A DNA stretch of 64,000 bases, taken from the NCBI RefSeq assembly GCF_002007645.1, contig NZ_CP019791.1, positions 3,216,593 through 3,280,592 on the forward strand. The letters are read 5' to 3'. The DNA is from Anaerohalosphaera lusitana. Its GTDB lineage: Bacteria; Planctomycetota; Phycisphaerae; Sedimentisphaerales; Anaerohalosphaeraceae. The notes beneath the pieces were generated by a model that was not told the DNA's origin, ran no database searches, and was given only the letters and a program-made list of their open reading frames with translations. The translations under genes and the position numbers were made by a program. Position 1 is the first letter of the stretch; every line of letters begins with the position of its first letter. Shown in pieces: positions 1,393 through 17,590 of the stretch.

Positions 1393-1884
1393 TTATCTGA
1401 TAGAAGCAAGGGCCTTATTGAGCGTCTGAATATGGCTCATCTCTTCTCTGATGATGTTCTGGACCTTATCCTTGCCTGCCTTCTGCGGAACGATATCCTT
1501 GATGCCGAGGTAGAAGGCAACAGAGTTCTTTTCAGCGCCGAGGGCCGCTCTGAGGATCTCTTCACGGCTTTCGTTGCCGGTCAAAGTTTCGTCGAGAGAC
1601 TTTTTACCCTCATAGCCGTGTGCGGAAGCCATGGACTGCAGATACATCTCGGCTTCGCCCTCTGGGTCGAAGGTGTTTTCTTCCTTCTCAAGTTCATTCA
1701 GGCTTTCCCTCATTTCGAGAAAAGTTTTTTCATGTCCATCTTCCATCTCAGCCAACGAAGTGAGCATCTTCTTCGTTTCAGGGTCGGACGAATTGTCCGC
1801 TGCTTTACGATAGAACTTAGCGCCATTGCGCTCTATCTCAATGGCCATTTCAAAAATTTCATCAGCATTGAACGTAATGCTCAT
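1393..1884 (-). CDS. rubrerythrin-like ferritin-fold protein without rubredoxin domain
   Basis: A 163-residue all-helical protein. It has two copies of the di-iron pattern of the ferritin/rubrerythrin superfamily: an early EIERNGAKFY helix followed by EMEDGHE, then GAEKNSVAFY followed by EEMSHIQ. There is no C-terminal rubredoxin domain, so it belongs to the erythrin-like ferritin-family proteins common in anaerobes. A role in peroxide reduction or iron handling is inferred from the fold and from its neighbours. The ATG at 1884 overlaps the ferritin stop (TGATG). A TTG one codon upstream is also in frame, but the ATG is the better start. Confidence 0.8.
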   Translation of the reverse strand: MSITFNADEIFEMAIEIERNGAKFYRKAADNSSDPETKKMLTSLAEMEDGHEKTFLEMRESLNELEKEENTFDPEGEAEMYLQSMASAHGYEGKKSLDETLTGNESREEILRAALGAEKNSVAFYLGIKDIVPQKAGKDKVQNIIREEMSHIQTLNKALASIR

Positions 1885-2402
1885 CAAGCTTCTCCTTCTG
1901 CCTCTTCAGGCGTAAAAGTACGTTGACCAAGTTCTCTATCCATCATGAACAGGGCCTGGGGGTTGCCTTCGACCAGTTTAAGCTGACTTACGAGCTTGCC
2001 GGCGTTGTCTTCCTCTTCGACCTGTTCATCTACAAACCACTGCAGGAAATTTTCGGTTGCATAATCATCTTCTTCACGAGCGAGCTTGACCAGCTTGTTT
2101 ATGAGGCCGGTAACTTTCTGCTCGTGCTCAAGTGTCGCCTCGAGTACAGCCAGAGGACTCGCCCACTCAGTGGGCGGACCATCGATCGCAGTCAGGTTGA
2201 CTTTGCCCCCGCGGAAATTCACAAAATCATAAATTTTCATCGCGTGACTTTGTTCTTCCTGGGCCTGGACTCTCATCCAGTTGGCAAACCCGTCCAGATC
2301 CATACCTTCGAAATATGCAGACATCGAAAGGTACATATAACCTGAGTACAATTCTGCATTTATCTGGCTGTTAAGGGCCTTTTCAATTTTTTCAGGTACC
2401 AT
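1884..2402 (-). CDS. ftnA: bacterial non-heme ferritin
   Basis: The 172-residue length and sequence fit FtnA. The N-terminal helix carries Glu17, followed by the YLSMSAYFE helix and the ferroxidase ligands in EEQSHAMK (Glu50, His53). Glu94 (EHEQ) and a later glutamine in the FLQWFVDEQ helix complete the centre. Ferritin oxidises Fe(II) and stores the iron in a 24-mer shell in the cytoplasm, which limits Fenton chemistry. Its start is 6 bp from the desulfoferrodoxin stop and its end overlaps the next gene, so it is certainly part of the oxygen-defence transcript. Confidence 0.93.
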   Translation of the reverse strand: MVPEKIEKALNSQINAELYSGYMYLSMSAYFEGMDLDGFANWMRVQAQEEQSHAMKIYDFVNFRGGKVNLTAIDGPPTEWASPLAVLEATLEHEQKVTGLINKLVKLAREEDDYATENFLQWFVDEQVEEEDNAGKLVSQLKLVEGNPQALFMMDRELGQRTFTPEEAEGEA

Positions 2403-2408
2403 CTTTCT

Positions 2409-2783
2409 CTATCCTTTCCACAGTCCGTGAACATTGCAGTGTTCACGAGCGGTGACAGAATTCGCTTCAACCTTGAACATTGCTTCGGGAGTGTCGCCAG
2501 GCTTTAGGAACTGCTTGTATGACTTGCCGTCAGCCAGCAGTTCGATCCACTGGATGTAATGCTCATCTTCCATTGGATGCTGGACGCTGCCGACCTTAAC
2601 CTTGTAGCCGCCATTGGTCTTTTCTATGACTGGTACATGCTTTTCCTTGCCCTTGTCCTCGGTTGCCGCGGCAAGTTTTTTCATTGGTTCGTTGCAGCAT
2701 ACAAGCTCTCCGTCGCCGCCGTTTAGAACCTCAACGATATTACCACAGATATTACATTTATAAACTTCGAGTCTCTCAGCCAT
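2409..2783 (-). CDS. dfx: desulfoferrodoxin (two-iron superoxide reductase)
   Basis: The 124 residues contain both iron domains. The N-terminal desulforedoxin-type Fe(Cys)4 site is formed by Cys10, Cys13, Cys29 and Cys30. The C-terminal superoxide reductase site has the EKH motif (Glu47, Lys48, His49), His69, His75, and Cys116 with His119. Superoxide reductase converts superoxide to hydrogen peroxide without making oxygen, using electrons from rubredoxin. The peroxide would then go to the rubrerythrin and thiol peroxidase of the same cluster. All ligand positions are intact, so the enzyme should be active. Confidence 0.97.
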
Positions 2784-2827
2784 ATGCCTTCCTTTCGAAA
2801 TGTTAAAACAATGTTTGTATCTCAGCG

Positions 2828-4006
2828 CTACATCAGCGAAGCTTCCTTGTGTTTGGCGACGATAGCGTCAGCCAGTTCGTCAAGCTTTGCGTAATCGTCC
2901 TCAGTGGGGTAACCCTTTGTGACCACCGGTTCGATGATCTCGGCCTTTACCTGCGACATCATGCCAGTTAGCTGGTCGACCATTTTGCTGCCCCAGCCGT
3001 AGGAGCCGATTATCGACATGAATTTCGTCTTCGGCCGTAATGCGTTTACGAGAAAAGCTGCGTATCCCGCCGACGGATGCGCCCCTATAAGCATAGTCGG
3101 GGATGCAAGAACGATCGTCGCGGCATCGACAAGTCCCATCGCGAGTTTGCCCAGCTCAACATCGGTCAGGTTGAACACGTCGACTTTCACGCCCCTGTCC
3201 ATCAGGCTCTGTGAGAAGTACTCCACCATCTTGCGGGTGCTGTCGTGCATCGAAACATAGGGGAGCATGACATAGTTTTTCACGTCTTCGCTGGCCCATT
3301 TCGCGTATGCATCAATGATGAACTTCGGGTTTTTGTAAACCGGCCCGTGACTTGGAGCGATCATCTCAATATTGAATTTTTCCAGCTTCTTGAGATTGCC
3401 GCGTATTTGCCTTCTGAACGGGCTCATGATCTCTGCGTAATATCTTTTCGCGGGGCCATAGATGGCCGACTCGTTCTCAACGAAAATATCACTGGTCGCA
3501 AGATGCGAACCAAAAAAGTCGCAGGGAAACAGTATCTTGTCCTCCTGCAGATATGTCGAAAATGTCTCGGGCCAGTGTACCCATGGCGTGTCGATGAACT
3601 CCAACGTCCTGTCGCCCAACGAGAGGGTATCGCCTTCCTTAATAGTCAGGAAGTTCGACTCGTCCAGACACAGAAGATCGATCAGCATTTTCTTGCATTT
3701 CTCGTTGGCTACCACTTTGGCGTCCGGATAGAGCAAAAGCACATCGTTGATACTTCCGGAGTGGTCCTGCTCGCCGTGATGCGCGACGATGTAATCTATT
3801 TTGGTCACGCCCGCGCTGACAAGATTATCGATCAGTATCTCGGTCTTCTCCGGGTCAACCGTATCGATAAGGACTGTCTTTTCCTGGCCCTTGATCAGGT
3901 AAGAATTGTAACTGGTGCCGTCCGGCAGAGGGATCAGCTCATCGAATAGCCGTCGATCCCAGTCGATCGCACCCACACTGTATATGTTATCCGCTATCTT
4001 TCTCAC
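2828..4006 (-). CDS. fprA: flavodiiron protein (rubredoxin:oxygen oxidoreductase / FprA type)
   Basis: A 392-residue protein made of an N-terminal metallo-beta-lactamase-like di-iron domain and a C-terminal flavodoxin domain (about 250-392). The di-iron ligands are visible as HGEQDH (His77, Glu79, Asp81, His82), followed by the WVHWPET and FPCDFFGSH segments. The family reduces O2 to water (or NO to N2O) in the cytoplasm, with electrons from rubredoxin. The start is a GTG, set by a perfect AGGAGG six bases upstream. It lies 27 bp after tpx and 44 bp before dfx. Confidence 0.95.
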
Positions 4007-4033
4007 GGTACACCTCCTGGCAAAACTAATAAA

Positions 4034-4549
4034 CTATACCAGTTGTTTAGCTGCATTTATCGCAGCATCATAATCGGGCTCGTTTGTGATCTCAGGAACA
4101 AGCTCCGTATATTTTATTGTTCCATCCTTGTCTACTACGAACACGGCCCGAGCCATGAGCCTCAGATCTTTTATGCATACCCCTACCTGCTGTCCGAAAT
4201 TGCAATTTTTGTGGTCGGAAAGCGTCTCGACATTCTCGATGCCTGCAGCCCCGCACCACCTGGCCTGGGCAAAGGGCAGGTCCATGCTTATGGTCAGAAC
4301 CTTGATATCATCGCTCAGGCTGGCCGCCTCTTCGTTGAAACGCCGTGTTTCAGCATCGCACACGCCCGTATCCAGGGACGGAACGGTACAGATGATCAAT
4401 ATCTTGTCCTGGTAGGAAGACAGCTTTACTGGTGACAGATCGTTTTTGACAAGCTCGCTGTCAGGCAGCTTATCCCCCACTTGCACCTCATCGCCCATCA
4501 GAACTACCGGATTGCCTTTCATCGTCACTAAGTTGCTTCGTTCTTTCAT
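4034..4549 (-). CDS. tpx: thiol peroxidase (atypical 2-Cys peroxiredoxin, Tpx)
   Basis: The 171-residue length and sequence match Tpx: the N-terminal KGNPV motif, the peroxidatic site PSLDTGVCD (Cys64), and the resolving cysteine at position 99 in RWCGA. These correspond to Cys61 and Cys95 of the E. coli enzyme. Tpx reduces hydrogen peroxide and alkyl peroxides using thioredoxin. A GGAGA ribosome site lies 7 bases before the ATG. The 118-bp gap to rubrerythrin upstream contains a 9-bp stem-loop, so this gene may have its own promoter or processing site. Confidence 0.95.
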   Translation of the reverse strand: MKERSNLVTMKGNPVVLMGDEVQVGDKLPDSELVKNDLSPVKLSSYQDKILIICTVPSLDTGVCDAETRRFNEEAASLSDDIKVLTISMDLPFAQARWCGAAGIENVETLSDHKNCNFGQQVGVCIKDLRLMARAVFVVDKDGTIKYTELVPEITNEPDYDAAINAAKQLV

Positions 4550-4577
4550 GGCTAGTCTCCTTTAAAGTGCTTCTCCA

Positions 4578-4609
4578 GTTTGCCGACAGCATTAAAGCTA
4601 TCGGCAAAC
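4578..4609. promoter_or_regulatory. stem-loop between rubrerythrin and tpx
   Basis: A perfect 9-bp inverted repeat (GTTTGCCGA / TCGGCAAAC) around a 14-base loop lies in the rbr-tpx gap. No T-run follows on the minus strand, so it is not a classical intrinsic terminator. An RNA-stability or processing element between rbr and tpx is the simplest reading. That role is inferred. Confidence 0.4.
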
Positions 4610-4667
4610 CAGAATTTACGCAAGCTTAAATTTCTTCAAATCCCCAGTATAATAATATGGTTACCCA

Positions 4668-5240
4668 TTAGAAGTTAACAGCTTCAAGCTCGAAGTGTGC
4701 CTGCGGATGCGCGCATGCCGGGCAAACTTCGGGGGCTTCCGGGCCTTCGTGTATGTAGCCGCAGTTCCTGCAGGCCCACCTGACAGGCTTATCCTGCTTG
4801 AATACCGAACCGTTCTCGATGCTGCTTGCCAGTTTCAGATAACGGTCCCTGTGTCTGGCCTCTGCGACGGCGATATTACGGAACACGTCGGCAATATTGT
4901 CAAATCCCTCTTCATCAGCGATCTTCGCAAATCCGGGATACATGTCACTGGTCTCGTAATCCTCTCCAGCAGCAGAAGCCTTGAGATTATCAACGGTGGT
5001 TCCTATTACACCAGCGGGGAAGCTGGCCTGAATTTCCGCTTCACCGCCTTCGAGGAACTTGAACAGCCTCTTTGCGTGTTCTTTTTCCTGATTTGCGGTC
5101 TCTGTGAAGATGGCCTCTATTTGACGGTAGCCTTCTTTACGTGCCTGGCTTGCGAAATAGGTATATCGATTCCTAGCCTGCGACTCACCCGCAAACGCTG
5201 TCAGAAGATTTTTTTCGGTCCGTGTACCCTTTAAACTCAT
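4668..5240 (-). CDS. rbr: rubrerythrin
   Basis: A 190-residue two-domain rubrerythrin. The four-helix di-iron domain has the paired ligand motifs EKEH (Glu52, His55) and EARH (Glu127, His130), plus an early Glu19 helix. The C-terminal rubredoxin-like Fe(Cys)4 domain uses Cys157, Cys160, Cys173 and Cys176. Rubrerythrin is the main hydrogen peroxide reductase of anaerobes, fed by rubredoxin. GGAG lies 9 bases before the ATG. It directly follows the PerR-type regulator with a 31-bp gap, an arrangement common in anaerobes. Confidence 0.97.
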   Translation of the reverse strand: MSLKGTRTEKNLLTAFAGESQARNRYTYFASQARKEGYRQIEAIFTETANQEKEHAKRLFKFLEGGEAEIQASFPAGVIGTTVDNLKASAAGEDYETSDMYPGFAKIADEEGFDNIADVFRNIAVAEARHRDRYLKLASSIENGSVFKQDKPVRWACRNCGYIHEGPEAPEVCPACAHPQAHFELEAVNF

Positions 5241-5271
5241 AGCATCTTTCTCCGGTAATAAAACAATTTAC

Positions 5272-5694
5272 TTAATTATTTTCCTTACAATTATCGCACA
5301 AACCTTCCAGATAAACCGTTGCCCGTAAAACCCTGAAACCTGATGGAAGCTCGGGCGGCACCAGGATATCGTCAAAGGGTTCGTGATGAAAATCCACAAT
5401 TTCATTGCATTTAACACACTTAAAATGTTGGTGGCTGTCCAGATTTGCGTCAAATCTCTTGGCACCACCTGACCCGGCAACAACGAAGGCCAGCCCAGCT
5501 TCGGCAAACGTCAATAAGGTTCTGTTTACCGTATCGAGCGAGACCCGGGGCATCTCTTTTCTTACCTCTCTCCAGACACTCTCTGCAGATGGGTGCTCTT
5601 TTGAGCCTGCAAGTATCCGGTATATAGCCGCTCGCTGCGGAGTCAGCCTCAAGCCCTTGTCTCTGCATAGTTGTTCAAATTTCGTCTCAGCCAT
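5272..5694 (-). CDS. perR: PerR-type Fur-family peroxide sensor
   Basis: A 140-residue Fur-family repressor with an N-terminal winged helix (RLTPQRAAIYRIL, about 16-28). The structural zinc cysteines are Cys93/Cys96 and Cys133/Cys136. Regulatory-site residues align with B. subtilis PerR by an offset of 3: His34, His88, His90 and Asp101. The aspartate at 101 (in EIVDF) corresponds to PerR Asp104, where Fur has glutamate, and this favours peroxide sensing over iron sensing. It heads the cluster of peroxide, superoxide and oxygen reducing genes it presumably controls. A GGGGGG ribosome site lies just before the ATG. Confidence 0.9.
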   Translation of the reverse strand: MAETKFEQLCRDKGLRLTPQRAAIYRILAGSKEHPSAESVWREVRKEMPRVSLDTVNRTLLTFAEAGLAFVVAGSGGAKRFDANLDSHQHFKCVKCNEIVDFHHEPFDDILVPPELPSGFRVLRATVYLEGLCDNCKENN

Positions 5695-5837
5695 TAGATC
5701 CCCCCGCTTTGCATAAAAACCTCATGACGAATTGCTCCCTATCCATAAAACGCTTTATCGTAGCCACTACTATATACGATTCACTCTTACGTTCAACACT
5801 TATTTTCAGAAAATCTTACAAAAATCTCCCTCAGAGC

Positions 5838-6635
5838 TTAGAATTCAACGGTATTGCTCAATTTAGGCGAAACCGCCAGACCCGCCCTGCTGAAGAATTC
5901 CAGACCTCCACCTGCAATAAAGCGGGCATGCTCTATAATCTGCATTATTTTTATTACGTGTTCGACATCACGTTCAAAAACTTTTGACCCCTGTTTTTCG
6001 ACTCCACATTCATCACATGGTATTATCCCTCGCATATCGCATTCCTCGCAGGGCCTGACACCGAGGCCTGCACAGTCACGGCACTGGGCCTCTACTACTT
6101 TGGTTTCCATCTGGCCCGCCTGGGACCTGTAACGGACCCTGTCTTCGATCTTGCCGTCTCCGCGGCAAGTCAGGCAGACAGACCAGCCGCTGCCGCCGCA
6201 CACGCTGCAATCAACATACCCCAATCCGCCGCATTTGGAACAATCTTGTTCGGGAAGACGAGTTGAAGATTCATTCAAAATGCTCTGCAGACTTAGAGAA
6301 CCCGGCAGCGATGAGTCCGCATAGTCGCTCACCTGAGCGTTCCGGCTAACCTCAGCAAGTTCCCGATGGGCACGAACCAGATCGCCCTTCAAGTAGAAGT
6401 CCAAACCATCAGCCAACTGCTTGAAAGATCTCCTGACAGCCTGATCATGTGTTTTGAAATCTTCATGGAGTATTTCGCGATAAGTCAGATTGAAGCCGGA
6501 CGGCGAACTCATGATCTCTATTCTCAACTGTTCCGCATCCATAGTGCCGGCTGGTTGTGCTGCTGTAAAAGATATACTGCAGATAAGTACAAAGACGCCA
6601 AAGAGGAGTAAAAGCAAGTCCTGTCGCTGTTTCAT
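5838..6635 (-). CDS. exported protein with DnaJ-type CXXCXGXG cysteine repeats
   Basis: A 265-residue protein with an N-terminal signal peptide (hydrophobic 7-24, cleavage near AAQ). Between about residues 130 and 215 it has six CXXC knuckles, several of the CXXCXGXG form (CSKCGGLG, CSVCGGSG, CRDCAGLG). These resemble the zinc-binding domain of DnaJ, which binds unfolded polypeptides or redox partners. Finding them in an exported protein is unusual. The gene is the last of a run and overlaps the J-like gene by ATGA, so J-like and zinc-finger halves of a DnaJ-like system are encoded side by side on separate proteins. Function unknown. Confidence 0.75.
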   Translation of the reverse strand: MKQRQDLLLLLFGVFVLICSISFTAAQPAGTMDAEQLRIEIMSSPSGFNLTYREILHEDFKTHDQAVRRSFKQLADGLDFYLKGDLVRAHRELAEVSRNAQVSDYADSSLPGSLSLQSILNESSTRLPEQDCSKCGGLGYVDCSVCGGSGWSVCLTCRGDGKIEDRVRYRSQAGQMETKVVEAQCRDCAGLGVRPCEECDMRGIIPCDECGVEKQGSKVFERDVEHVIKIMQIIEHARFIAGGGLEFFSRAGLAVSPKLSNTVEF

Positions 6636-8986
6636 GCCTGTTCCTCCCGGATCGTGTTGATCAGTTCCCAGGTTTGAAGATTAGCTATTGCGTTTACTCT
6701 GATTTCGTCAATGATGTTGGTGCAGTTTTGGAGCTGGGTCCTGTGGTCCATCGTCAGTTTGTCGAGGGCATTGACATATTCGCCCCGCTCGTCAATCTGC
6801 AATGTCAGCACTTCCAGCAGCCTGACGCTGCTGTCCAGCTCCACCGCGAACTTCTGCAGATAAGTATGACAGCATGAACGTCTGGCCTGGCGCTGAAGCT
6901 CGATGGAGGCTATCGCGTCACGAAATACATCGGCCCGGATGTGCTGTCGAACCAGGATCCCTATCTGATCCGTCATATAGCCCGCCTGGGCCAGAGCCTC
7001 TTCACCAACCTGCGAGAACTCATTCGGCACGTCAAATTCATCATCGCCCTGCCGTGTTTCGTTGCTTTGCTTTGCCATCTTCATTTCGCAAAGCCGGCCA
7101 ATTATACCGCAGCTTCTCGCTCCGAAAGCGAAATACTTGCCGGCATCTACATATTCTGCTGCTGCCGGTCTGCCCTGTTGATATTGAGTTTGGTCAGGAT
7201 CGGTGAATTGCATTTCCCGGACAGCATTCAACCACCAGTCGCTGCACTGCCTGCGTTCCGTCTCGGTGTTTCTTGGTTTCAAATGACCCGGGTCAGCCGG
7301 ACCGATACCCGTCATATCCATAAGCGCTATCCAGACCTGGTGTGAGATCAGAGGATTGTCCGTTTGAGAGATAGCATTTGCCAATCTTATGGCGTTGTCC
7401 CTGCCTCCGATGCGTTTGACCGCACGCAGACGAGCGTTTATAGTCTTGCGGTCTCCGCTGAAACCTTGCTTATCGGCACCAAACAATATGTCCACCGCTT
7501 TGGAACTGCCGATAGTTTCAAGCCTTTCTATTGCTTTGTATCTTTCAACCCTGTCACTCGCCGCCATCTGCCCTTGCAGTTCCTCCAGCTCTTCGGCGGT
7601 AACGCGCCTGGTGTTCTCATCGTCACTATCGAGATCGAGTGTAATCCTCTGTTCGACCAGTTCGGCCCAATCCTCGTTCAGCGGGAACTTAGGCACATTG
7701 GGGTCATAGGGCAGATCGCAAAAATCGTATGCTTTTTGAGCACAGACCATCATGGCCATTCCAATGTCTGCCATAGCGGCCTTTCTGTCGAGTCCATAGC
7801 CCGAGCCGCTTTTCAGAAATGCATAATCTTCACTGGGCGGGGGAACATCTTTTTGCGGAACTATGGGCTGAGCTTGAAAAGTGGTTTGCACCGCATTTTC
7901 CGGGGGTCTTGGCTGTTCCGGGACATCGAGAGCATCATTTTCGTCTGGAACCTGCACCGGCTGGTCAGGTTCGGGTTGCTCGGATCTGACGTCCGGGGGC
8001 AGATCTTCTTCAACCTCTTGATCACCTCGATTGGAGGAGAGAAATGCGATAACGCCAATGAGTATGAGTGTACAGAGAACGGGGACAGCAAAATTGACGA
8101 CTGCCGCCCAGTCGATGGTAAATCCTTCGAATAATGAAGTTCGGTCGCGATCAATCTGATCCTCGGTTTCCTCCTCCGTGACAGGGTCGAGGGGGATGTC
8201 CACAAGCTCATCGCCGGCAGTTGCCCCGCCGTCTTCGCTGAGGTCAAGCAGGCTATCGATATCGGTCTCGCTGAGGTGGCTGACTGTCGCATGCGAGGGA
8301 TCGCCTTTGGTCTGTCTTTCTACCGGTTCGAGAACGTGGTCGCCTGAGACCTCTTCGATGCATTCGAAGACGGCTTTTTCGGTCAGGCCGAGCCTTTTGC
8401 CGAGCTTGACCAGCTTGTTGAACTGTTCGGGAGACAAGGGTCCGTCGCTGGCTTCGAGGCTGACAGCGTCTCGGAAGAAAGATACGTTCAGACCTATCTG
8501 GGTTTCTTCTTTGTTCGAGAGCGGAATGCGTGCAAGGATTGCATCGACGTTCTTTTGGGCGACGCCGATCTGACGTAGTTCCTTTGCCAACGCGACTCGT
8601 CGGGCCGGCGTTAAAGTACCGTCGCTGCTGACGGCATTCATGACTGCGGCGCGGGTCCGCTCGAGCAAGGCGGCATTCTCTTCGGTTTTCTTCTCGATCT
8701 GGCGCTGCTTGAGAAGGAGCTGCTTGTCGTATTCCCGCCGTTTATGTTCATCTGCGAGAACTTCTGCCGCGACCTCGAGCTGCTCTTTTTCGAACTTCAT
8801 TACGAGGGGAATGAACTCCGGGCCGGGTATGTTTTCGCGGAGCTCACGTTTGCGGGCCTTGAGCGCACTGCGGACCACGTCGGCATTGCAGCCCTTGCGA
8901 TCGATGCCGAGTATGTGGTAATAGCTCGGGTCGACTATGTGCCGGGCTATGCCGAGAATGCGATAAAATACTCTTAGATCACTCAT
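6632..8986 (-). CDS. J-like domain membrane protein of the ExbBD-associated module
   Basis: The N-terminal 90 residues look like the J-like domain seen at the head of many planctomycete proteins (PSYYHILGID, then a helix ending in RREYDKQ). The HPD tripeptide that activates DnaK is missing, so co-chaperone activity is unlikely. A charged helical linker and an acidic stretch lead to one transmembrane segment (about residues 300-322). A proline-rich stretch follows, then an alpha-helical C-terminal part of about 400 residues with a HEAT-like section (around 480-590). The ATG at 8986 overlaps the stop of the TPR gene (ATGA). Topology is probably cytoplasmic J-like domain and periplasmic C-terminus. 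Specific function unknown. Confidence 0.75.
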   Translation of the reverse strand: MSDLRVFYRILGIARHIVDPSYYHILGIDRKGCNADVVRSALKARKRELRENIPGPEFIPLVMKFEKEQLEVAAEVLADEHKRREYDKQLLLKQRQIEKKTEENAALLERTRAAVMNAVSSDGTLTPARRVALAKELRQIGVAQKNVDAILARIPLSNKEETQIGLNVSFFRDAVSLEASDGPLSPEQFNKLVKLGKRLGLTEKAVFECIEEVSGDHVLEPVERQTKGDPSHATVSHLSETDIDSLLDLSEDGGATAGDELVDIPLDPVTEEETEDQIDRDRTSLFEGFTIDWAAVVNFAVPVLCTLILIGVIAFLSSNRGDQEVEEDLPPDVRSEQPEPDQPVQVPDENDALDVPEQPRPPENAVQTTFQAQPIVPQKDVPPPSEDYAFLKSGSGYGLDRKAAMADIGMAMMVCAQKAYDFCDLPYDPNVPKFPLNEDWAELVEQRITLDLDSDDENTRRVTAEELEELQGQMAASDRVERYKAIERLETIGSSKAVDILFGADKQGFSGDRKTINARLRAVKRIGGRDNAIRLANAISQTDNPLISHQVWIALMDMTGIGPADPGHLKPRNTETERRQCSDWWLNAVREMQFTDPDQTQYQQGRPAAAEYVDAGKYFAFGARSCGIIGRLCEMKMAKQSNETRQGDDEFDVPNEFSQVGEEALAQAGYMTDQIGILVRQHIRADVFRDAIASIELQRQARRSCCHTYLQKFAVELDSSVRLLEVLTLQIDERGEYVNALDKLTMDHRTQLQNCTNIIDEIRVNAIANLQTWELINTIREEQA

Positions 8987-11346
8987 TCCCAACCCTCACG
9001 GAGACGTTTCATTTGCCTGGTCCAGTTGTCTTTGAGATGCTGTTTATGTTTCACAGTAAAGTATTTCGCCATCCTGTCTGCAAGATCTTGCCGGCCTGCC
9101 TGGTAGGTGGTGGCGATGAGATTGTAGTTGGCCTGGAACCACATCTCGCTGCCCTGAGGCAGACCCTTGGCCAGGACGTTCCATTTGTCGGCTGCGTGCT
9201 GAAACTTACCCGCGCCTTCCAGAGCGCTTGCGTGAGCGGCAAGCACCTCCACCGACTGGCCTGCCTTTGTTTCCTCGATCCTGTCGAATAGATTCAGGGC
9301 CTGTTCATACTTGCCGACCTTGGAATATGCTTTTGCCAGCCCGAACCGGATACGCAGCATAAGATCGTCGTCGAGCTGCTCTGATGCTTTCTGTGACAGT
9401 TTCAATGCATGCTCGTAAACCTCAAATATTGTGTTCTGCTGCTGAGGCCCATCTTTTTCGCTTGCGTACGCTTCGCCTGCCTGTACGAGTGACCTGATCA
9501 CCTGGACGCTGACCTGGTCCTCGGCCAACAGTTCCTGCAGATATTCCGAAAGCCCGCCGGTCTCTGTGTTTGCTGCCCGCACGCGTATCTGCAGGGCACT
9601 GAGTTTGTCGCCGAGAACGTCCTCCACGTCCAGGCTCTGGAGCTTGCTGCATAACTGCAAAGCCATGCTCACATCTGTGCCGGTGTTGAAAACTTCCTCT
9701 GCGATTACAAAACCCAGTTGCACCGCCTTTTGGCGAAGCGCTTCGTTATCTTTTGCTTCGGTGAGTCCGTTGGCCAGCTCCTGCCAGGCAGACTCGCTTT
9801 TGTCAAGCAGAACTGTCTTTTGGTCTTGATCATCGGTCAGCTCGGATGCTTTGAATGCTGCGAGTGACTTGTTGTAAAGAAACGAAAGTTTGATCGAATC
9901 GGCAGGCTGGTCGATGCTTTCCAGGATCGTCATTGCCTGGGCGAATTCTTTCCTTTCTATCATGAAAACGGCTCGGGCGTACCGGCTGTGCATTGTGACC
10001 CGCTCAGAACTGTAGCTGTCTTCCAGCTTATCGAGCAGCGAGATCGCGTTCTCGGGTCCTGTTTGGCCCTGGGTGAAGGCTTTGACCAGCGATCCGATCG
10101 CGAGGACCGCCAGTTCTTCGCCATCGGTTGCTTGCGGTGCGTTCTCGATGTATTCCACCACCGCCCGCGCAAATTCAGCCCGCTTTTCTGTTCCTGCAAG
10201 AGCCAGGCAGCGGGTGTGCCGCAATGCCGTTAGAACCTGTTGGGAAGTCTGCGGACCTGCGGTCTCGAGTCCTTTGCGGGCTTGTTCGGCTGCTGGTTCG
10301 TTCTCGTTTTTCAGCAGGAGTTTGCGCGCCCTTGCGAGCCTGGCGAGAGGGATATCGTATTCGCCGTCGGCCAGCCCCGCGAGCACATGTCCCTGCCATT
10401 GCTCGCCCTGAGTGTAGAGGGCTTCGCCTGTCTGTTCGAGTCTGTTCATGTAACCGCTTGCGTAGGGGTTGCCGGGCCTGCAGATGAATCGCAATGCGTC
10501 AAAACGCATGACCGCGAACTGAAGATCGGTCTGACTCTGTATCTGCGTGCTGTTGTTGTCGAAGTAATCCTGGCAATTCAGTTCGAGCTCCAGGTACATG
10601 CCGAGCTCATTATAAGAACGGCACGTTATCAGCAGCAGTTTTTGCCATAGCGGGGACTGTTCGATCTGGCCGGTCTTGAACTGACCCTCAAGCCAGCTTA
10701 TCAGTTCGTAATGTCTGTTCAGTTCGTAATAGCACATGGCCTGTCCAAGGAGACAGTCTGCGACGATATCGCTGCCCTGATAGCCTCCTATCGTGAACCT
10801 TCTAAAAAGATCGATAGCTTCCTCCATCGCATCGGTTCGGTCCGCTCCGTCTTCGGCCAGCCCGATTCCGTACCAGCACCATGCCTTTGCATAGGTGGCT
10901 CTCGAGCCGTAACCCTTTATCTCCCGCCACCTCTGGCTGCGCTCAGTCGGTCCCCAGCGGTATCGCGTCCTGAGCTGATCCGCATCGTCGGACGCCTGAT
11001 CCGCAAGCTCATCGTAGCGGGTAATGCAACTGCTCAAGAGATCTATCGCCCTGACTGCTGCTGAATCATCGCCGGCGGCGGCTTCTCTGGCATGGATGCG
11101 TCCTTCGACCTGGTCCATGTCCACACCGAGGAAACCGGCCTTGAGGGTGGTAAGCCGCATTCGGTTGGCAGCGTAGAGCAGCCTCGCTTCGTTCAAATAG
11201 GGTCTGGCCTTTTCGATACTCTCACTACCCAGCGCCTTGCCCAGGAGGCTCTTGACCTGGTCCTCGACGCCCTGCTGTTCATCGCCGACTGCCATGCCGA
11301 GAAACAACATTAACGCCAAAACAGAATGAAAAAGCACCTGCTTCAC
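8983..11346 (-). CDS. periplasmic TPR-repeat protein
   Basis: A 787-residue protein with a signal peptide (MKQVLFHSVLALMLFLGMAVG) followed by alpha-helical repeats throughout. Typical TPR residue spacing is clear in the segments around residues 450-480 and 680-740 (for example the AYSKVGKYEQALNLFDRIEE stretch). TPR proteins are scaffolds for protein complexes. Here it overlaps the second ExbD gene by ATGA and the J-like gene by ATGA, so it is translated with them. It is the best candidate for the periplasmic partner that an ExbBD-type motor would act on. That role is inferred from context. Confidence 0.8.
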   Translation of the reverse strand: MKQVLFHSVLALMLFLGMAVGDEQQGVEDQVKSLLGKALGSESIEKARPYLNEARLLYAANRMRLTTLKAGFLGVDMDQVEGRIHAREAAAGDDSAAVRAIDLLSSCITRYDELADQASDDADQLRTRYRWGPTERSQRWREIKGYGSRATYAKAWCWYGIGLAEDGADRTDAMEEAIDLFRRFTIGGYQGSDIVADCLLGQAMCYYELNRHYELISWLEGQFKTGQIEQSPLWQKLLLITCRSYNELGMYLELELNCQDYFDNNSTQIQSQTDLQFAVMRFDALRFICRPGNPYASGYMNRLEQTGEALYTQGEQWQGHVLAGLADGEYDIPLARLARARKLLLKNENEPAAEQARKGLETAGPQTSQQVLTALRHTRCLALAGTEKRAEFARAVVEYIENAPQATDGEELAVLAIGSLVKAFTQGQTGPENAISLLDKLEDSYSSERVTMHSRYARAVFMIERKEFAQAMTILESIDQPADSIKLSFLYNKSLAAFKASELTDDQDQKTVLLDKSESAWQELANGLTEAKDNEALRQKAVQLGFVIAEEVFNTGTDVSMALQLCSKLQSLDVEDVLGDKLSALQIRVRAANTETGGLSEYLQELLAEDQVSVQVIRSLVQAGEAYASEKDGPQQQNTIFEVYEHALKLSQKASEQLDDDLMLRIRFGLAKAYSKVGKYEQALNLFDRIEETKAGQSVEVLAAHASALEGAGKFQHAADKWNVLAKGLPQGSEMWFQANYNLIATTYQAGRQDLADRMAKYFTVKHKQHLKDNWTRQMKRLREGWE

Positions 11347-11771
11347 TCACCAGGTCCTTTCGCGCTGAACCCTACCTTTGAAAAGCCGAGCAGATGAGAG
11401 ATATCTACTGCCTTGACCATGTTCTCAAACGGCACACCCGCCCCGCCGCGTACAATGACATCCATGTCAGATATCTCGCGTCTTATCCGCAGGTTCTCTC
11501 GCAAACCTGCCCAGCCGTCACAAAGTGTACCGTCACAGAATATCCGCAGTTGATCAGCCTCACTGATCAGCTCAATTTCGACGCTGTCCATGTATTCCTG
11601 CTGACCGACACCCTGTTCGACCCTGCTCAGAGCCGCCTGCATACGATTTTCAGGCTGAACGAAATTTGATGTGCACATGAAGAATATGAGCAGCAGCATC
11701 ACTATGTCGATCATGGCCGGCATGTTCAGCTTGTGCGGTTCTCTGTATTTGTCGCTTCTTCGTAGTCTCAT
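11343..11771 (-). CDS. ExbD/TolR-family protein (second copy)
   Basis: A 142-residue protein with a short basic cytoplasmic N-terminus and one transmembrane helix containing the functionally essential aspartate (MIDIVMLLLIFFM, Asp22). A periplasmic domain follows with the family's ending (VKAVDISHLLGFSKVGF). ExbD and TolR sit inside the ExbB/TolQ pentamer and couple proton flow to work in the periplasm. The gene is 12 bp after the first exbD copy, and two ExbD paralogues in series are common in planctomycetes. The periplasmic domain has a CDGTLCDGW insert with two cysteines not found in the other copy. Confidence 0.88.
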   Translation of the reverse strand: MRLRRSDKYREPHKLNMPAMIDIVMLLLIFFMCTSNFVQPENRMQAALSRVEQGVGQQEYMDSVEIELISEADQLRIFCDGTLCDGWAGLRENLRIRREISDMDVIVRGGAGVPFENMVKAVDISHLLGFSKVGFSAKGPGE

Positions 11772-11783
11772 AGTATCTTCCGT

Positions 11784-12200
11784 CTACGATGCCTTGATCA
11801 CACCCACTTTGACACCGGTAATGCCGGCTTTGGCGCATATGTCCAGCAGTCCTCGAACCGCCTTCCAGTCGGTGGTTCTGTCGCCTCTTATGTGAACTTC
11901 CACGTTGCTAGTTCCGGCAGTTTCGGCTTCGTTCCTGACCAGGTTGCCAAATTGATCGGCAGTAATCCGTTCGCCCAGATGATGTATATCCTCGCCCGCG
12001 GTCACACTGAACACGAGCTCTTTTCTAAGCGCGTTGCTCTGCTCGTTGACCTGCTCGGCGGAGGGCAGATCGATCCTCATCTGCCTGGGCGTGACCTGTG
12101 ATACAGACATAAAGAATATGATCAGCAGGAAAAACACGTCAATCAGCGACGCGATGTTCACGCCCATGCCAGGTTTTGGTCTGGGTCTGCAAAGCTTCAT
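11784..12200 (-). CDS. ExbD/TolR-family protein (first copy)
   Basis: A 138-residue ExbD-type protein. The single transmembrane helix carries the conserved aspartate (SLIDVFFLLIIFFM), followed by a periplasmic domain with the ADQFGNLVRNE and VHIRGDRTTDW stretches typical of ExbD/TolR. Its start overlaps the exbB stop by 4 bp, so it is coupled to that gene and probably forms the motor with it. The following copy differs clearly in its periplasmic part, which suggests a heterodimer or two alternative motors. Confidence 0.9.
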   Translation of the reverse strand: MKLCRPRPKPGMGVNIASLIDVFFLLIIFFMSVSQVTPRQMRIDLPSAEQVNEQSNALRKELVFSVTAGEDIHHLGERITADQFGNLVRNEAETAGTSNVEVHIRGDRTTDWKAVRGLLDICAKAGITGVKVGVIKAS

Positions 12201-12964
12201 GCTGAACCGGCTCCCGTGTTCTCTGTCTTACCTTTGCGGAAACGGCCCATAAGCCGTTCGACTTCGATCTCCGCTTCTGCTACGAAGTTATCGATGCGGT
12301 TGCGGAAAAAGGTTGCGAAAAACATGGCTGGTATCGCGACCACGAGGCCAAGGCATGTTGTCACAAGTGCCTCGGAAATACCACCGGCCAACTCGGAAGG
12401 TCTGGCGGCACCCTCGGTGAGAGCGATCTGGTTGAACGAACGGATCATACCAGTAACCGTGCCGAGCAGTCCCATCATGGGTGCTACGGCAGCGATGAAC
12501 GAAAGATAATCCAGCCTGCGGTAGAGCTTCGAGATATTCCGCTCACTGACTTCCTGCATCGCGTTCTGCATGTCGAAGAAGCCGAACATCGAATTCACTT
12601 CGTTGAGACCAGCGGCGATGACCCGACCCAGGAATGAATCATCCTCGGTACACATCTCTTTCGCCCGCTGGTACTCGCCCATACGCAGGTTCTCGCGAAC
12701 GTCGTCGGCGAGTCCCGTGGGTATGAGCTTTTCGTGGCGGATATTGATAAAACCCTCGACCACCAGGGCGAGTACGACCAGTGAGGTCAGCAGGATGATA
12801 TAGCCTATTATCCCGCCTGCAGCGATGGTGCTCCACAACGATATGCGTGTTTCCTGGTCACCGTCTTCGGCGCCGAATGCGGTCGCAACGCAAAGCATGG
12901 CCAGGCACAATGTCAACAGTACTCTTTGCCGGGCTGTAATCCGAAATATCCTCTTTCCAAGCAT
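12197..12964 (-). CDS. ExbB/TolQ/MotA-family proton channel protein
   Basis: A 255-residue protein with an N-terminal signal-like hydrophobic stretch, then three transmembrane segments in the ExbB pattern (about 48-75, 155-180 and 197-222). The family signature lies in the second and third (APMMGLLGTVTGMI and SEALVTTCLGLVVAIPA). ExbB/TolQ pentamers form the stator channel around ExbD/TolR. The ATG at 12964 has GGAGAG 8 bases upstream and is preferred to an in-frame TTG 33 bp earlier. It follows the VWA gene by 35 bp. Confidence 0.92.
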   Translation of the reverse strand: MLGKRIFRITARQRVLLTLCLAMLCVATAFGAEDGDQETRISLWSTIAAGGIIGYIILLTSLVVLALVVEGFINIRHEKLIPTGLADDVRENLRMGEYQRAKEMCTEDDSFLGRVIAAGLNEVNSMFGFFDMQNAMQEVSERNISKLYRRLDYLSFIAAVAPMMGLLGTVTGMIRSFNQIALTEGAARPSELAGGISEALVTTCLGLVVAIPAMFFATFFRNRIDNFVAEAEIEVERLMGRFRKGKTENTGAGSA

Positions 12965-12999
12965 GTTTATTTTCTCTCCTGATGTTGAAATTTTCAAAA

Positions 13000-13965
13000 T
13001 TAACGGCCTGCTACAAAGCGGTACTTGCCGTCATTTTTATTGGCTATCTGTTTGAGTATTGCCTCACCGCTTCTGTTCAAAAATGCGATGGTATTTATTA
13101 CCACTCCGCGTTGTTTGTTATATCTGGTGATATGATCGGACATCGAGCTGTTGAACTGACCATCGCTGAGCAGCCATACAGCGTCGGGGTTAAGGCTCAG
13201 AGCAAGCTCCATAGCGGAAGTCGGATCGGTACTGCCCGAACCGGTAATGCTCTCGAGCCAGTCATAGCAATCCTCCTTGTTCTCTTCGGTTGCTTCGACT
13301 AGTTCGCCTCCGGGCATGGCAATATGGCTGCCGCTGTAGAAAATCACGAAAAACTCGGCAAACTCTTCCAACTCGGATATGCTTCGTCGCAGCTCGGTTT
13401 TGGCCATATTAAGAGGTTCACCTCGCATGCTGCCTGAGCGGTCAACGACATAGACGAATTTGGTGCCGGAGACTTCGAGGCCGAAAAAGCTCGCCCCGCC
13501 TGAGCCTGCAGCACCCCCGCCGCTGAGCGACGCTTCCTGCCAGGCGTTGCCGAGCCCAGCCGTACCCGTATCCATGTTCAGCATTTGGGAATCCAGAACC
13601 TCGCTTCGCATCTGCGCATCTTCGGTGGGCATAAGTGCTCCGAGTTCAACCTTCACCTCGGGCATATCGGCAGATGGTGCGACCGAGACACTTTGATCAA
13701 TCTGCTCCTGCTGACCCAGCGACTCGAGCTCGTCGCCGGATTCGTATTCAACGATCGCAACTTCAACATCGCCGTTGCCGCGGTCCCCGCCGTACATCCA
13801 GCCGATCTTGCCGATACCGACTATCGCCACGACATGGATTATAAGCGATACCGTCCACCCCAGCATCGCTGCGGTGTTGACGCGGCGCTTCCAATTGCTG
13901 CCGCTTTTTGTGCCAGCGGAAGCGTCGTCAAATTCCGGTCTATCCTGAATGCCAGTTCCGTCCAT
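13000..13965 (-). CDS. VWA-domain protein with TonB-like N-terminal anchor
   Basis: A 321-residue protein with a cytoplasmic N-terminus of about 33 residues, one transmembrane helix (about 34-56), a periplasmic linker, and a C-terminal von Willebrand A domain (about 165-321). The metal-binding MIDAS is complete: DRSGS, a later STDPTS threonine, and LLSDGQ. The helix contains SLIIH, the S-x-x-x-H pattern (Ser40, His44) that TonB uses to couple to ExbB/ExbD. Genes for ExbB and two ExbD proteins follow directly, so this may be an ExbBD-driven protein in which a VWA domain replaces the TonB C-terminal domain. That coupling is inferred. It starts 16 bp after holA. Confidence 0.8.
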   Translation of the reverse strand: MDGTGIQDRPEFDDASAGTKSGSNWKRRVNTAAMLGWTVSLIIHVVAIVGIGKIGWMYGGDRGNGDVEVAIVEYESGDELESLGQQEQIDQSVSVAPSADMPEVKVELGALMPTEDAQMRSEVLDSQMLNMDTGTAGLGNAWQEASLSGGGAAGSGGASFFGLEVSGTKFVYVVDRSGSMRGEPLNMAKTELRRSISELEEFAEFFVIFYSGSHIAMPGGELVEATEENKEDCYDWLESITGSGSTDPTSAMELALSLNPDAVWLLSDGQFNSSMSDHITRYNKQRGVVINTIAFLNRSGEAILKQIANKNDGKYRFVAGR

Positions 13966-13981: not shown

Positions 13982-14974
13982 CTAACGGTTTTTGAGTGTC
14001 ATCCCCAACTTGAACACTAACTGCTCTATGGCGACCTTTCCATCCATCCCCCCTGTCTTCATCGAAAGGTCTATGTGGGCCAGTTCACGTATTGCGCTGC
14101 CCAGTTGAGCGAGTCCGACCTTCTTGATCTGCGTCAGAAATGCCGACTGATTCTTTCCGAAGATCCGCAGCTTACCGCAAACCTGTCTTATCGGCACGCC
14201 CGTCTCGATCATGACCTTCGCGTTAAACATCTTGCGCATGTGATACGCAAAAGCTCCCACGGCTGTGTACTCGGCACTGGGGTCGTGTACGAACATATTG
14301 CGAAGTCGTTCGACCGCGCCGGCAGTGTTTCCGCTGGTTATCAGGTCGATCACCTCGAACGCGTTGAATGCACGGCTCTTGCCTATGAGCGTTTCGACGT
14401 CATCAAGCGAGATCTTAGCCGACTCGTCGACGTACATCGCAAGTTTGTCTACTTCGCTTGCGAGCTTTCCGGGATCGTCACCTACAAACTCCACCAGCGC
14501 CGCGGCTGCATCTCTGTCCAGGGTCTTGCTGTGTTCCGTTTTGGCTCGTTCTACGGCATAGCCCGGCAGTTGTGCGGGCTTGAGATCGCCTACCTCGATC
14601 AGCTCGCCGACCTTTGGAAGCTTTTTGGCAAGTTTCGTACTCTTTTGCCATTTACTGACGACCAGAACAAGGACGCCGCTCTTGCTCGGTTCTTCAAAAT
14701 AGCGTTCCAGAAGAGGCCGGTTGGCAGTGATGAACTTATCCGCACCGCGCAGTACCACCACCCGCCGAGATGCAAGGAACGGTACTGTTCGCAGTTCGTC
14801 GAGCACCGTTACGCAGTCGACTTTGTCCGGGTCCGGCTGAAACAGGGCCATATCCCGTTCATCGTCGCCGAGAAGGCTGTCGACCAGCGATTCGCACTGC
14901 TTACCCACAAGGTGCGCGTCCTTGCCGCAGATCACATATATGCAACTGACTTCCTTGTTCTTATTTTTTGCCAT
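13982..14974 (-). CDS. holA: DNA polymerase III delta subunit
   Basis: A 330-residue protein with the HolA pattern: an N-terminal domain with the IYVICGKD start and ELRTVPFLASRRVVVLRGAD (about 58-77), followed by the SGVLVLVVSKW strand, the FVGDDPGKLASEVDKL motif (about 170-185) and a C-terminal helical collar domain. HolA is the clamp-loader subunit that opens the beta sliding clamp. It starts 9 bp after gyrA and lies 16 bp before the VWA gene, so housekeeping replication genes and the envelope module share a transcript. Confidence 0.9.
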   Translation of the reverse strand: MAKNKNKEVSCIYVICGKDAHLVGKQCESLVDSLLGDDERDMALFQPDPDKVDCVTVLDELRTVPFLASRRVVVLRGADKFITANRPLLERYFEEPSKSGVLVLVVSKWQKSTKLAKKLPKVGELIEVGDLKPAQLPGYAVERAKTEHSKTLDRDAAAALVEFVGDDPGKLASEVDKLAMYVDESAKISLDDVETLIGKSRAFNAFEVIDLITSGNTAGAVERLRNMFVHDPSAEYTAVGAFAYHMRKMFNAKVMIETGVPIRQVCGKLRIFGKNQSAFLTQIKKVGLAQLGSAIRELAHIDLSMKTGGMDGKVAIEQLVFKLGMTLKNR

Positions 14975-14983
14975 CGATCAAAG

Positions 14984-17590
14984 CTACTCTTCAGCATTCT
15001 CATCAGGTTCGGCAGATCCTTCGGCCTCACTGGAAGATTCCTCGCCGTTTTGGGCGGATTCAGCCGCCTCTTCTTCCTCTTCAAGGCTGAGCCGTTCGAC
15101 CGCAACCAGTTTATCGTCTTTCTTGAGATTGATCATGCGAACGCCGGAAGTACTTCTGCCGATAACCCTGACTTCCTCCAGGCCGGTCCGTATGATCATA
15201 CCCTGTGCGGTTATCATCATGATGTCGTCTTCGTCCTGAACAGCCTTTATGGCGATCACCTTGCCGTTTCTGTCCAGGCCCTTGATGTTGATTATGCCCT
15301 TACCGCCACGGCTCTGAACACGGTATTCTTCCAACGCGGTGCGTTTTCCGTAGCCATTCTCACACGCTGTCAGCAGTGAAGCACCTTCTTCCACGATGAC
15401 CATGCCTACTACGGCATCGTCTTTGGCCAGGCTGATGCCTTTTACTCCCCTGCTCACGCGCCCCATCGAACGGGCGTCGGCTTCGTGGAAGCGTATGGTC
15501 ATGCCTTTTTCCGTGCCGAGGATGATCTCGTTTTCGCCGCTGGTCACATCGACACCGATCACCCAGTCGCCCTCGTCCAGGCGAACAGCCTTTACGCCGT
15601 TGGAACGCGGGTTGCCGTATGCACTGAGTACGGTCTTTTTAACTATGCCGTTGCGGGTAGCCATGAGGAGCTGCCGCTGATCGTCGAATTCCCGCACGTT
15701 CAGGATAGACGCGATACTGTCGTCGCCCAGGTCAAGCAGATTCGCGATATTCCTGCCCTTGCTCTGTCTGGACATGGCGGGGATGTTGTAGACCTTGAGC
15801 CAGTAGCAGATGCCTCCTGTGGTGAATACCAGCAGGTAATCATGCGTCGAGGCCGTAAATAGATGTTCGATAAAGTCATCTTCCTTCGTCGAAGAGCCTA
15901 TGATTCCTCTGCCGCCGCGTGCCTGCTTGCGGTAGGTATCGATCGGCATACGTTTCATATAGCCCTGATGGCTGATCATCACCAGCACTTCTTCTTCCGT
16001 GATGAGGTCTTCCAGGTCGAACCCTGTCAGGTCCTCTTCACTGATATTCGTGCGGCGGTCATCGCCGTATTTGCCCTTGATCTCGTGAATGTCTTCACGC
16101 ACCACGTCAAACTGCATATCCTTGTTTGACAGCAGTGCTTCGTAGCCTTCGATCTTCTCAGTCAGGTCGCCGTATTCTTTGGCGAGCTTCTCGATCTCGA
16201 GACCCGTAAGCCGCTGAAGCTGCATGGTGAGGATCGCATCCGCCTGCGGTCCGGTCAGGAACTGCTCTTTGCCGTGACGTTCAGAGACGAACGATTCCGG
16301 CAACAGACGTCGCAGTGTTTCTGATTCGACCAGCTTGAGGGGCTTTTCCATCAGGTTGATCTTAGCCGTCGGTGCGTCCGGGGACTTCTTGATCAGCTCG
16401 ATGATCTCGTCAATGTCGCTGACCGCCAGGATCAGGCCTTCCAGGATATGGGCGCGGTTGCGGGCCTTCTTCAGCAGATAACGCGTTCTGCGCCTTATCA
16501 CGATAAGCCTGTGCTCGATGTAGAGCTTGAGCATCTGCTTGATGTTAAGCGTTTCGGGTCGGCTGTTGACCAGCGCGACGTTGTTGATGGCGAACGTGTT
16601 CTGCAGAGGCGTGTAGCGGTAAAGCTTGTTCAGGACGACATTCTCGTCAGCGTCCTTGCGGACCTCGACCACGATCCGCATGCCCTTACGGTCGGACTCG
16701 TCCCGTACGTCGCTAATCTCGGGAATCGTGCCTTCACGCACGCAGTCGGCGATCTTGGAAACAATGGTCGCTTTTACGACCATATAGGGTATTTCGGTGA
16801 ATATAATGCTGATCTTGCCGCGCTTGCTCTCTTCGATGTGGTGTTTTGCGCGGACTTTGAGATGGCCGCGACCGTGGACGTAGGCATCGAGGATGCCTTT
16901 TCGGCCGCAGATTATGCCGCCGGTCGGGAAGTCGGGGCCGGGCAGCACTTCCAGGATGTCCTTGAACGTGCAGTCCGGGTTGTCGATCATCAAAAGCAGT
17001 GCATCGCATACCTCGTTGAGGTTGTGCGGCGCGATGTTTGTGGCCATGCCGACCGCGATACCACTGGCACCATTTACCAGCAGATTTGGGAACTTTGAGG
17101 GCAAAACGACCGGTTCTTTCCGTGTTTCGTCGTAGTTCGGCACGAAATCGACCGTGTCCTTCTCGATGTCCTCCATCATATCCGGGGCGGGTGAGGCAAA
17201 ACGTGCCTCGGTATATCGCATAGCAGCGGGCGGATCGGCGTCGATGCTGCCGAAATTACCTTGCGGGTCAACGAGCGTGTAACGCATGTTCCAGTGCTGG
17301 CCGAGCCGGACCAGCGTGCCGTAGGTGGCCTGGTCGCCGTGCGGATGGTAGTTACCGCTGGTGTCACCGACGATCTTGGCACATTTACGGTGCTTGCCGC
17401 GTGGACCGAGGTTCAAATCGTTCATCGCGACGAGGATACGCCTCTGTGAGGGCTTAAGGCCGTCCCGCACGTCGGGCAGTGCACGCGAAACTATGACGCT
17501 CATCGCATAGTTAAGGTACGAAGTCTTCATTTCGTCGAGGATCTTCATATCCTCGAATCGGTCGTTGATTGTCTCGTTAATATCAGCCAT
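14984..17590 (-). CDS. gyrA: DNA gyrase subunit A
   Basis: An 868-residue GyrA with the breakage-reunion domain. The active-site tyrosine is Tyr126 in AMRYTEARF, and the C-terminal domain has beta-pinwheel repeats with GyrA-box sequences QARGGRG and QSRGGKG. It ends in an acidic tail. Gyrase introduces negative supercoils with GyrB. The quinolone-resistance region reads HPHGDQATYG: the position of E. coli Ser83 is Gln87 and that of Asp87 is Gly91, both changes from the drug-sensitive residues. The gene begins a nine-gene minus-strand run. The GyrA box argues for gyrase rather than topoisomerase IV. Confidence 0.95.
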   Translation of the reverse strand: MADINETINDRFEDMKILDEMKTSYLNYAMSVIVSRALPDVRDGLKPSQRRILVAMNDLNLGPRGKHRKCAKIVGDTSGNYHPHGDQATYGTLVRLGQHWNMRYTLVDPQGNFGSIDADPPAAMRYTEARFASPAPDMMEDIEKDTVDFVPNYDETRKEPVVLPSKFPNLLVNGASGIAVGMATNIAPHNLNEVCDALLLMIDNPDCTFKDILEVLPGPDFPTGGIICGRKGILDAYVHGRGHLKVRAKHHIEESKRGKISIIFTEIPYMVVKATIVSKIADCVREGTIPEISDVRDESDRKGMRIVVEVRKDADENVVLNKLYRYTPLQNTFAINNVALVNSRPETLNIKQMLKLYIEHRLIVIRRRTRYLLKKARNRAHILEGLILAVSDIDEIIELIKKSPDAPTAKINLMEKPLKLVESETLRRLLPESFVSERHGKEQFLTGPQADAILTMQLQRLTGLEIEKLAKEYGDLTEKIEGYEALLSNKDMQFDVVREDIHEIKGKYGDDRRTNISEEDLTGFDLEDLITEEEVLVMISHQGYMKRMPIDTYRKQARGGRGIIGSSTKEDDFIEHLFTASTHDYLLVFTTGGICYWLKVYNIPAMSRQSKGRNIANLLDLGDDSIASILNVREFDDQRQLLMATRNGIVKKTVLSAYGNPRSNGVKAVRLDEGDWVIGVDVTSGENEIILGTEKGMTIRFHEADARSMGRVSRGVKGISLAKDDAVVGMVIVEEGASLLTACENGYGKRTALEEYRVQSRGGKGIINIKGLDRNGKVIAIKAVQDEDDIMMITAQGMIIRTGLEEVRVIGRSTSGVRMINLKKDDKLVAVERLSLEEEEEAAESAQNGEESSSEAEGSAEPDENAEE

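Follow-up and report, generated by a model that had tools for sequence, protein, structure and literature searches.

A conserved gene module of Anaerohalosphaera lusitana and its relatives combining a vWA-type transducer, an ExbB/ExbD motor and a J-like membrane protein as a candidate trans-envelope machine

Seven adjacent genes of Anaerohalosphaera lusitana, located on the minus strand at positions 5838–13965 of the window (the whole 64,000-nt stretch of NZ_CP019791.1 that was analysed), probably encode a trans-envelope machine driven by the proton motive force (PMF), in which a VWA-domain transducer and a bitopic J-like adaptor would turn the activity of an ExbB/ExbD motor into mechanical work on the cell envelope, a reading to which a probability of about 0.68 is assigned. 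Proton-driven motors of the ExbBD/TolQR type are known from only a few tasks, namely Ton, Tol, gliding and type IX secretion. In the present case the motor belongs to a fixed set of seven to eight genes, in organisms without TolB and, as regards several genomes, without any Ton component, so that it must serve another task. The module is well conserved and sharply testable, and occurs in organisms devoid of the usual users of such motors.

The open reading frames and their coordinates (Table 1) confirm seven contiguous genes on one strand, with 4-bp stop/start overlaps at four of the six junctions, as stated in the preliminary description of this DNA. The two ExbD genes are separated by a 12-bp gap, and the spacing between the VWA and ExbB genes is about 35 bp if ExbB starts at ATG 12964, which is preceded by AGGAG and reads as likelier than the upstream TTG (12997) of the ORF list. 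The names given to the TPR, J-like and cysteine-repeat proteins are less secure than those of the VWA, ExbB and ExbD proteins, because their Pfam matches fall below the cut-off, and an NCBIfam search of the module proteins gave no equivalog above cut-off. The J gene is present in a single copy in the window's genome.

Table 1. Genes and overlapping junctions of the module, with its upstream neighbours (window coordinates)
Feature	Position	Strand	Remarks
VWA-type force transducer (predicted), 321 aa	13000..13965	-	Pfam VWA 3.3e-8, above cut-off
ExbB/TolQ-type motor subunit	12197..12964	-	Pfam MotA_ExbB 2.7e-32, above cut-off
ExbB/ExbD1 overlap	12200-12197	-	ATGA
ExbD/TolR-type subunit 1	11784..12200	-	Pfam ExbD 3.3e-17, above cut-off; Asp in LIDV motif
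ExbD/TolR-type subunit 2	11343..11771	-	Pfam ExbD 2.8e-17, above cut-off; Asp in MIDI motif
ExbD2/TPR overlap	11346-11343	-	GTGA
TPR-like exported helical-repeat protein, 787 aa	8983..11346	-	GTG start; N-terminal signal sequence
TPR/J overlap	8986-8983	-	ATGA
Bitopic J-like protein, 784 aa	6632..8986	-	DnaJ Pfam E 0.019, below cut-off
J/CxxC overlap	6635-6632	-	ATGA
Exported Cys protein, 265 aa	5838..6635	-	DnaJ_CXXCXGXG Pfam E 0.018, below cut-off
holA	13982-14974	-	Upstream neighbour, outside module
gyrA	14984-17590	-	Upstream neighbour, outside module

The first gene specifies a protein with one N-terminal transmembrane (TM) helix bearing an SxxxH motif (residues 40–44, window 13848–13834), followed by a glycine/acidic linker and a VWA domain (residues 171–317, 13455–13015) with the MIDAS sequence DRSGS. 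SxxxH lies within the membrane helix of 30 of the 31 module members and the MIDAS consensus DxSxS is found in all 31, while S40, H44, D175, S177, S179, T246 and D268 are invariant in an alignment of seven relatives. A Pfam search found no TonB_C on the window transducer, where a VWA domain occurs instead, and a sequence search against solved structures returned eukaryotic or bacterial VWA proteins. These motifs point to a TonB-like force transducer, in keeping with the TonB-like VWA anchor proposed earlier. In the ExbDs, the proton-site Asp is kept in those relatives whose frame was readable.

Several TPR families match the TPR-like protein weakly at residues 642–706, below the Pfam cut-off, and its matches among solved structures are confined to weak helical-repeat ones (PPR, MamA); the profile built for its family matches relatives over nearly their full length, with an E-value of 4e-239 for the window protein. 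The J-like protein comprises a J-like domain (residues 15–91, 8944–8714) with no HPD, a TM helix (residues 293–320, 8110–8027) and a HEAT-like helical region (residues 457–593, 7618–7208). A J-domain fold is predicted by its AlphaFold2 model (mean pLDDT 65.5, four-sequence alignment), residues 15–91 of which match the Tid1 J domain with a Z-score of 9.3 over 73 aligned residues (rmsd 3.2), a score at which helical matches can be generic; Foldseek returned nothing below E 0.001 for the whole model. HPD is absent from the J position of every relative keeping the domain, the sole HPD string (in L125) lying past the first 100 residues of a protein whose J position reads HPR, in line with the earlier characterisation as a J-like membrane protein without HPD. 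By domain profile, the same degenerate J domain is carried by many unrelated planctomycete proteins. A set of loci (L004–L029) illustrates an HPD-less J-like domain of about 85 residues, with a motif like DPDYYQLLGL, which is widespread in Planctomycetota on proteins that have little else in common. The window's own domain does not reach the Pfam threshold for DnaJ and has no match to another Pfam family.

The Cys protein has a signal sequence, a helical N-terminal part and six CxxC motifs around residues 132–208, four of which are CxxCxGxG, and fold searching returned DnaJ/BSD2-type zinc-finger matches of low significance. The number of CxxC motifs ranges from 4–7 in window-type members and four in family f8 down to one or two in most f4 members, and ten f7 relatives have none at all, so that it is the helical portion of this protein, as opposed to its zinc-binding repeats, that is conserved. 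The J and Cys parts form a single chain in G057, G564, G462, G364, G579 and G548 (loci L061, L068, L114, L128, L138 and L139). Given these fusions and the signal sequence borne by the Cys protein where it stands alone, the C-terminus of the J protein should be periplasmic. The charge around its TM helix, taken from an alignment with some rows in a wrong frame, left the topology undecided; the J-like domain is predicted to be cytoplasmic, in contrast to the exported Cys protein.

That the block is not a product of chance follows from the recurrence of the same order in 24 other loci. The sample consisted of 248 genomes of the class, searched with ExbB, J and VWA models, the loci then being read with family profiles. 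Counting the window, 25 loci have the full order VWA-(X)-ExbB-ExbD-ExbD-TPR-J-CxxC on a single strand. By profile, 19 of them have the extra gene X and three do not; the others are L081, whose Cys gene was recognised among the listed ORFs, and L138 and L139, whose J part has diverged beyond the reach of the profile yet shares one ORF with the CxxC part. X, which sits after VWA in most relatives, encodes an exported protein of about 360–400 residues without a clear Pfam family. The 25 loci represent six or more families of the class (f1, f2, f4, f7, f8, f109) and one named Sedimentisphaerales MAG, and the idea of a strain-specific cluster was rejected. In L081 and in the Sedimentisphaerales MAG the flanking genes differ from gyrA-holA. 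The earlier proposal of a conserved, energised envelope module is supported. Further loci ending at contig ends agree with the order (G145, from another class, and G572, G295, G586, G319, G582 and G591). In G405 the two ExbD genes are interrupted by an ORF resembling a REP-type transposase (L062, 8547–9518), the order being otherwise intact. Pairwise distances of the module proteins correlate with r values of 0.50–0.93 (maximum for TPR-J, 0.93), which suggests that the genes have largely been inherited together, these correlations also reflecting shared species history.

The order has exceptions. A J match is present in all 15 sampled f4 genomes, and within the window's family the module is clearly present in 2 of 14 genomes, one of which (G462) retains only a J-CxxC remnant. 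This fusion (L114, 5406–8558) stands alone near gyrA, with VWA, motor and TPR gone from the locus, and the best ExbB match of the genome is weak (1.3e-5). Two f4 genomes, G270 (L126) and G311 (L122), have VWA-X-TPR-J-CxxC in order with no room for ExbB-ExbD-ExbD; SxxxH is retained in their VWA proteins, and the J-like domain is missing from their J proteins. A coupling of motor loss to J-domain loss, as seen in these two genomes, was dropped as a general rule, since G462 keeps its J domain without a motor. Because all three genomes keep other parts without motor genes at the locus, the motor of the module can be lost, or perhaps borrowed, and J and CxxC are the pair that most stubbornly stays together. 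Replacement of the J and CxxC genes with the rest of the module in place, which would have spoken against a common function, was not found in relatives; the converse, J and CxxC without motor genes at the locus, does occur, in G462 as well as in G270 and G311.

In a tree of 58 ExbB sequences, 26 module ExbBs (f4, f7, f8) group with one from G287 (support 99/99), and those of the window, L081, G057 and G405 form a group of their own (92/99); placing all module ExbBs in one clade gave a p-AU of 0.30, compatible with one clade or two groups. Two other well-supported groups are non-module motors, the first from loci of the TPR-ExbB-ExbD-ExbD type and the second of a class-wide VWA-ExbB-ExbD type that includes the second motor of the window's genome. 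This second vWA-ExbB-ExbD locus (L158, G000:C1:1835500-1848000, 4655–6982) has an SxxxH helix and lies beside a clpX-like gene; TPR, J and CxxC genes were not found there by profile.

Periplasmic vWA force transducers were proposed in 2025 (PMC12204202) as VWA domains on a TonB-like TM helix with a conserved His, of unknown function, encoded in PVC bacteria next to one tolQ-like, two heterologous tolR-like and one TPR gene. According to the accessible part of that report, many but not all of them carry a full SHLS motif, and in AF3 models of related transducers it is through the conserved His that docking on the motor occurs. With its motor-docking His helix, C-terminal VWA domain and set of one tolQ-like, two tolR-like and one TPR gene, the core of the module appears to belong to this class; of the SHLS motif, the window protein retains S and H and has I and G where L and S would be expected. 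The module differs from the class, as far as the accessible part describes it, in its order (VWA first, TPR after the motor), in its ExbBs, which fall outside the tree group whose loci (the TPR-ExbB-ExbD-ExbD type above) resemble the published order, and in its J-like, Cys/helical and X genes, which that part does not mention. What is new relative to it is the fixed J-CxxC(-X) extension, and no description of the J-CxxC association was found in a literature search for which subscription papers were mostly out of reach. The preliminary description gave these parts no known combined function; a core of TPR, TolQ, two TolR and vWA had already been proposed as a force-transducer class. The transducer-helix His, the MIDAS site and the degenerate J domain offer handles for probing the role of vWA force transducers, which PMC12204202 leaves open.

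In the mechanism proposed here, ExbB and two different ExbDs would form a TolQR/ExbBD-type motor in the inner membrane, on which the SxxxH helix of the VWA protein would dock as TonB and TolA do. The VWA linker would span the periplasm, allowing the metal-binding VWA domain to grip a periplasmic or outer-membrane partner, for which the helical-repeat proteins encoded alongside are the likeliest candidates. The J-like protein may act as a bitopic adaptor: its degenerate J domain would serve protein docking in the cytoplasm and not Hsp70 stimulation, and a single TM helix would connect it to a HEAT-like solenoid in the periplasm, of which the Cys/helical protein would be a periplasmic extension, as suggested by their fusion in several relatives, while the TPR protein would serve as a periplasmic scaffold. 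The machine would perform mechanical work on some partner in the envelope, much like Agl-Glt or Tol-Pal, and would serve neither TonB-dependent import nor folding. Weighing against a single machine are G270 and G311, whose loci are without motor genes, and the solitary fusion of G462, where part of the set can outlive its motor or borrow one.

Evidence on what the motor may serve comes from the Ton, Tol and outer-membrane parts of sampled genomes. None of the 25 genomes of the class that were sampled has TolB_N, which was recovered from the controls (E. coli, Caulobacter and Bacteroides), and on this basis Tol-Pal proper was rejected. Omp85 is present in all 25, which indicates an outer membrane. 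The TonB-receptor plug domain is absent from all six f4 genomes examined that have the module or its non-motor part, and the TonB C-terminal domain from five of these, the sixth (G270) having one weak match; other genomes, that of the window among them, do have the plug domain. Because plug, TonB C-terminal domain and TolB are all absent in the five, their gene content implies that the module can neither energise TonB-dependent import there nor assist a Tol system.

For the output, envelope maintenance in the manner of Tol and transport in the manner of Agl-Glt are the foremost candidates. As a substitute for Tol-Pal, the motor would pull an outer-membrane or peptidoglycan-bound partner via the VWA domain, keeping the outer membrane attached and constricting. 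The module shares its motor subunits and an SxxxH-type docking helix with Tol-Pal and Ton, but has no TolB, Pal, or TonB or TolA C-terminal domain, and carries a VWA domain in their place. Such a substitute is conceivable, if with the odds against it: it would account for outer-membrane-bearing genomes devoid of TolB_N, and vWA-like and ExbB-like genes are indeed widespread in the class (236 and 228 of the 248 genomes, respectively), but the module includes no Pal-like gene, and the J-type module is so patchy in the window's family that an essential envelope role would rest on other, commoner vWA motors. A similarly tentative reading is that of a distinct machine with a task unrelated to Ton or Tol, in which the pseudo-J domain would link the vWA transducer to a cytoplasmic partner and the TPR/HEAT solenoids would carry force, Phycisphaerae-wide and with no described counterpart.

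In layout, the closest characterised machine appears by analogy to be the Agl-Glt system of Myxococcus xanthus, which according to the accessible part of PMC3169522 has an AglR-AglQ-AglS motor of one TolQ-type and two TolR-type subunits, a TonB-like bitopic transducer with a cytoplasmic FHA domain (GltG) and exported TPR proteins (GltC, GltD, GltE). A comparable role for the module in surface transport or gliding, with one TolQ and two TolR driving a moving trans-envelope complex and its surface cargo, is rather unlikely. The motor make-up, a TonB-like transducer whose membrane partner carries a regulatory domain in the cytoplasm, and the exported TPR proteins do argue for it; yet the module has a J-like domain instead of FHA, placed on a protein separate from the transducer, and forms a single compact operon, while VWA proteins go without mention in the Agl-Glt gene table as far as accessible. 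The likeness is moreover one of layout, none of the named Glt proteins being assigned here by sequence, and no evidence of motility was found.

The preliminary description had favoured an energised periplasmic machine for folding or assembly, built around a split DnaJ-like pair, which is now highly improbable. The predicted J-domain fold, shared with DnaJ/Hsp40 and with HPD-less J-like proteins such as Pam16, and the DnaJ-like CxxCxGxG repeats, present in some members, are encoded by adjacent and often fused genes. Unlike in DnaJ/Hsp40, however, the HPD motif is lost in all domain-bearing relatives, and the two parts usually form separate chains that the inner membrane probably keeps apart (J predicted cytoplasmic, Cys exported), while the same J domain recurs phylum-wide on unrelated proteins. 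The four CxxCxGxG repeats of the window protein recall type I DnaJ, but most f4 and f7 relatives have zero to two CxxC, including the ten with none. With HPD lost and the Cys motifs not conserved, the split DnaJ chaperone was rejected, and the folding machine is not supported. As to the energising of TonB-dependent import, which can be almost wholly discounted and was rejected for the f4 genomes, the ExbB/ExbD motor, the TonB-like helix and the presence of two plug-domain proteins and one TonB C-terminal domain elsewhere in the window's genome, all outside the module, are outweighed by the five module-bearing genomes with neither plug nor TonB C-terminal domain and by a transducer that ends in a VWA domain.

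Since VWA begins 16 bp past holA, co-transcription with gyrA-holA is possible in the window's genome. A scan for promoters and terminators found promoter-like sites somewhat more often than in shuffled sequences, and terminator-like sites in ordinary number. Adjoining the module, the stretch 1393–5694 holds what is judged to be an oxidative-stress/iron gene set, with ferritin-like, desulfoferrodoxin-like, flavodiiron-like and peroxiredoxin-like genes, rubrerythrin and a Fur/PerR-type regulator.
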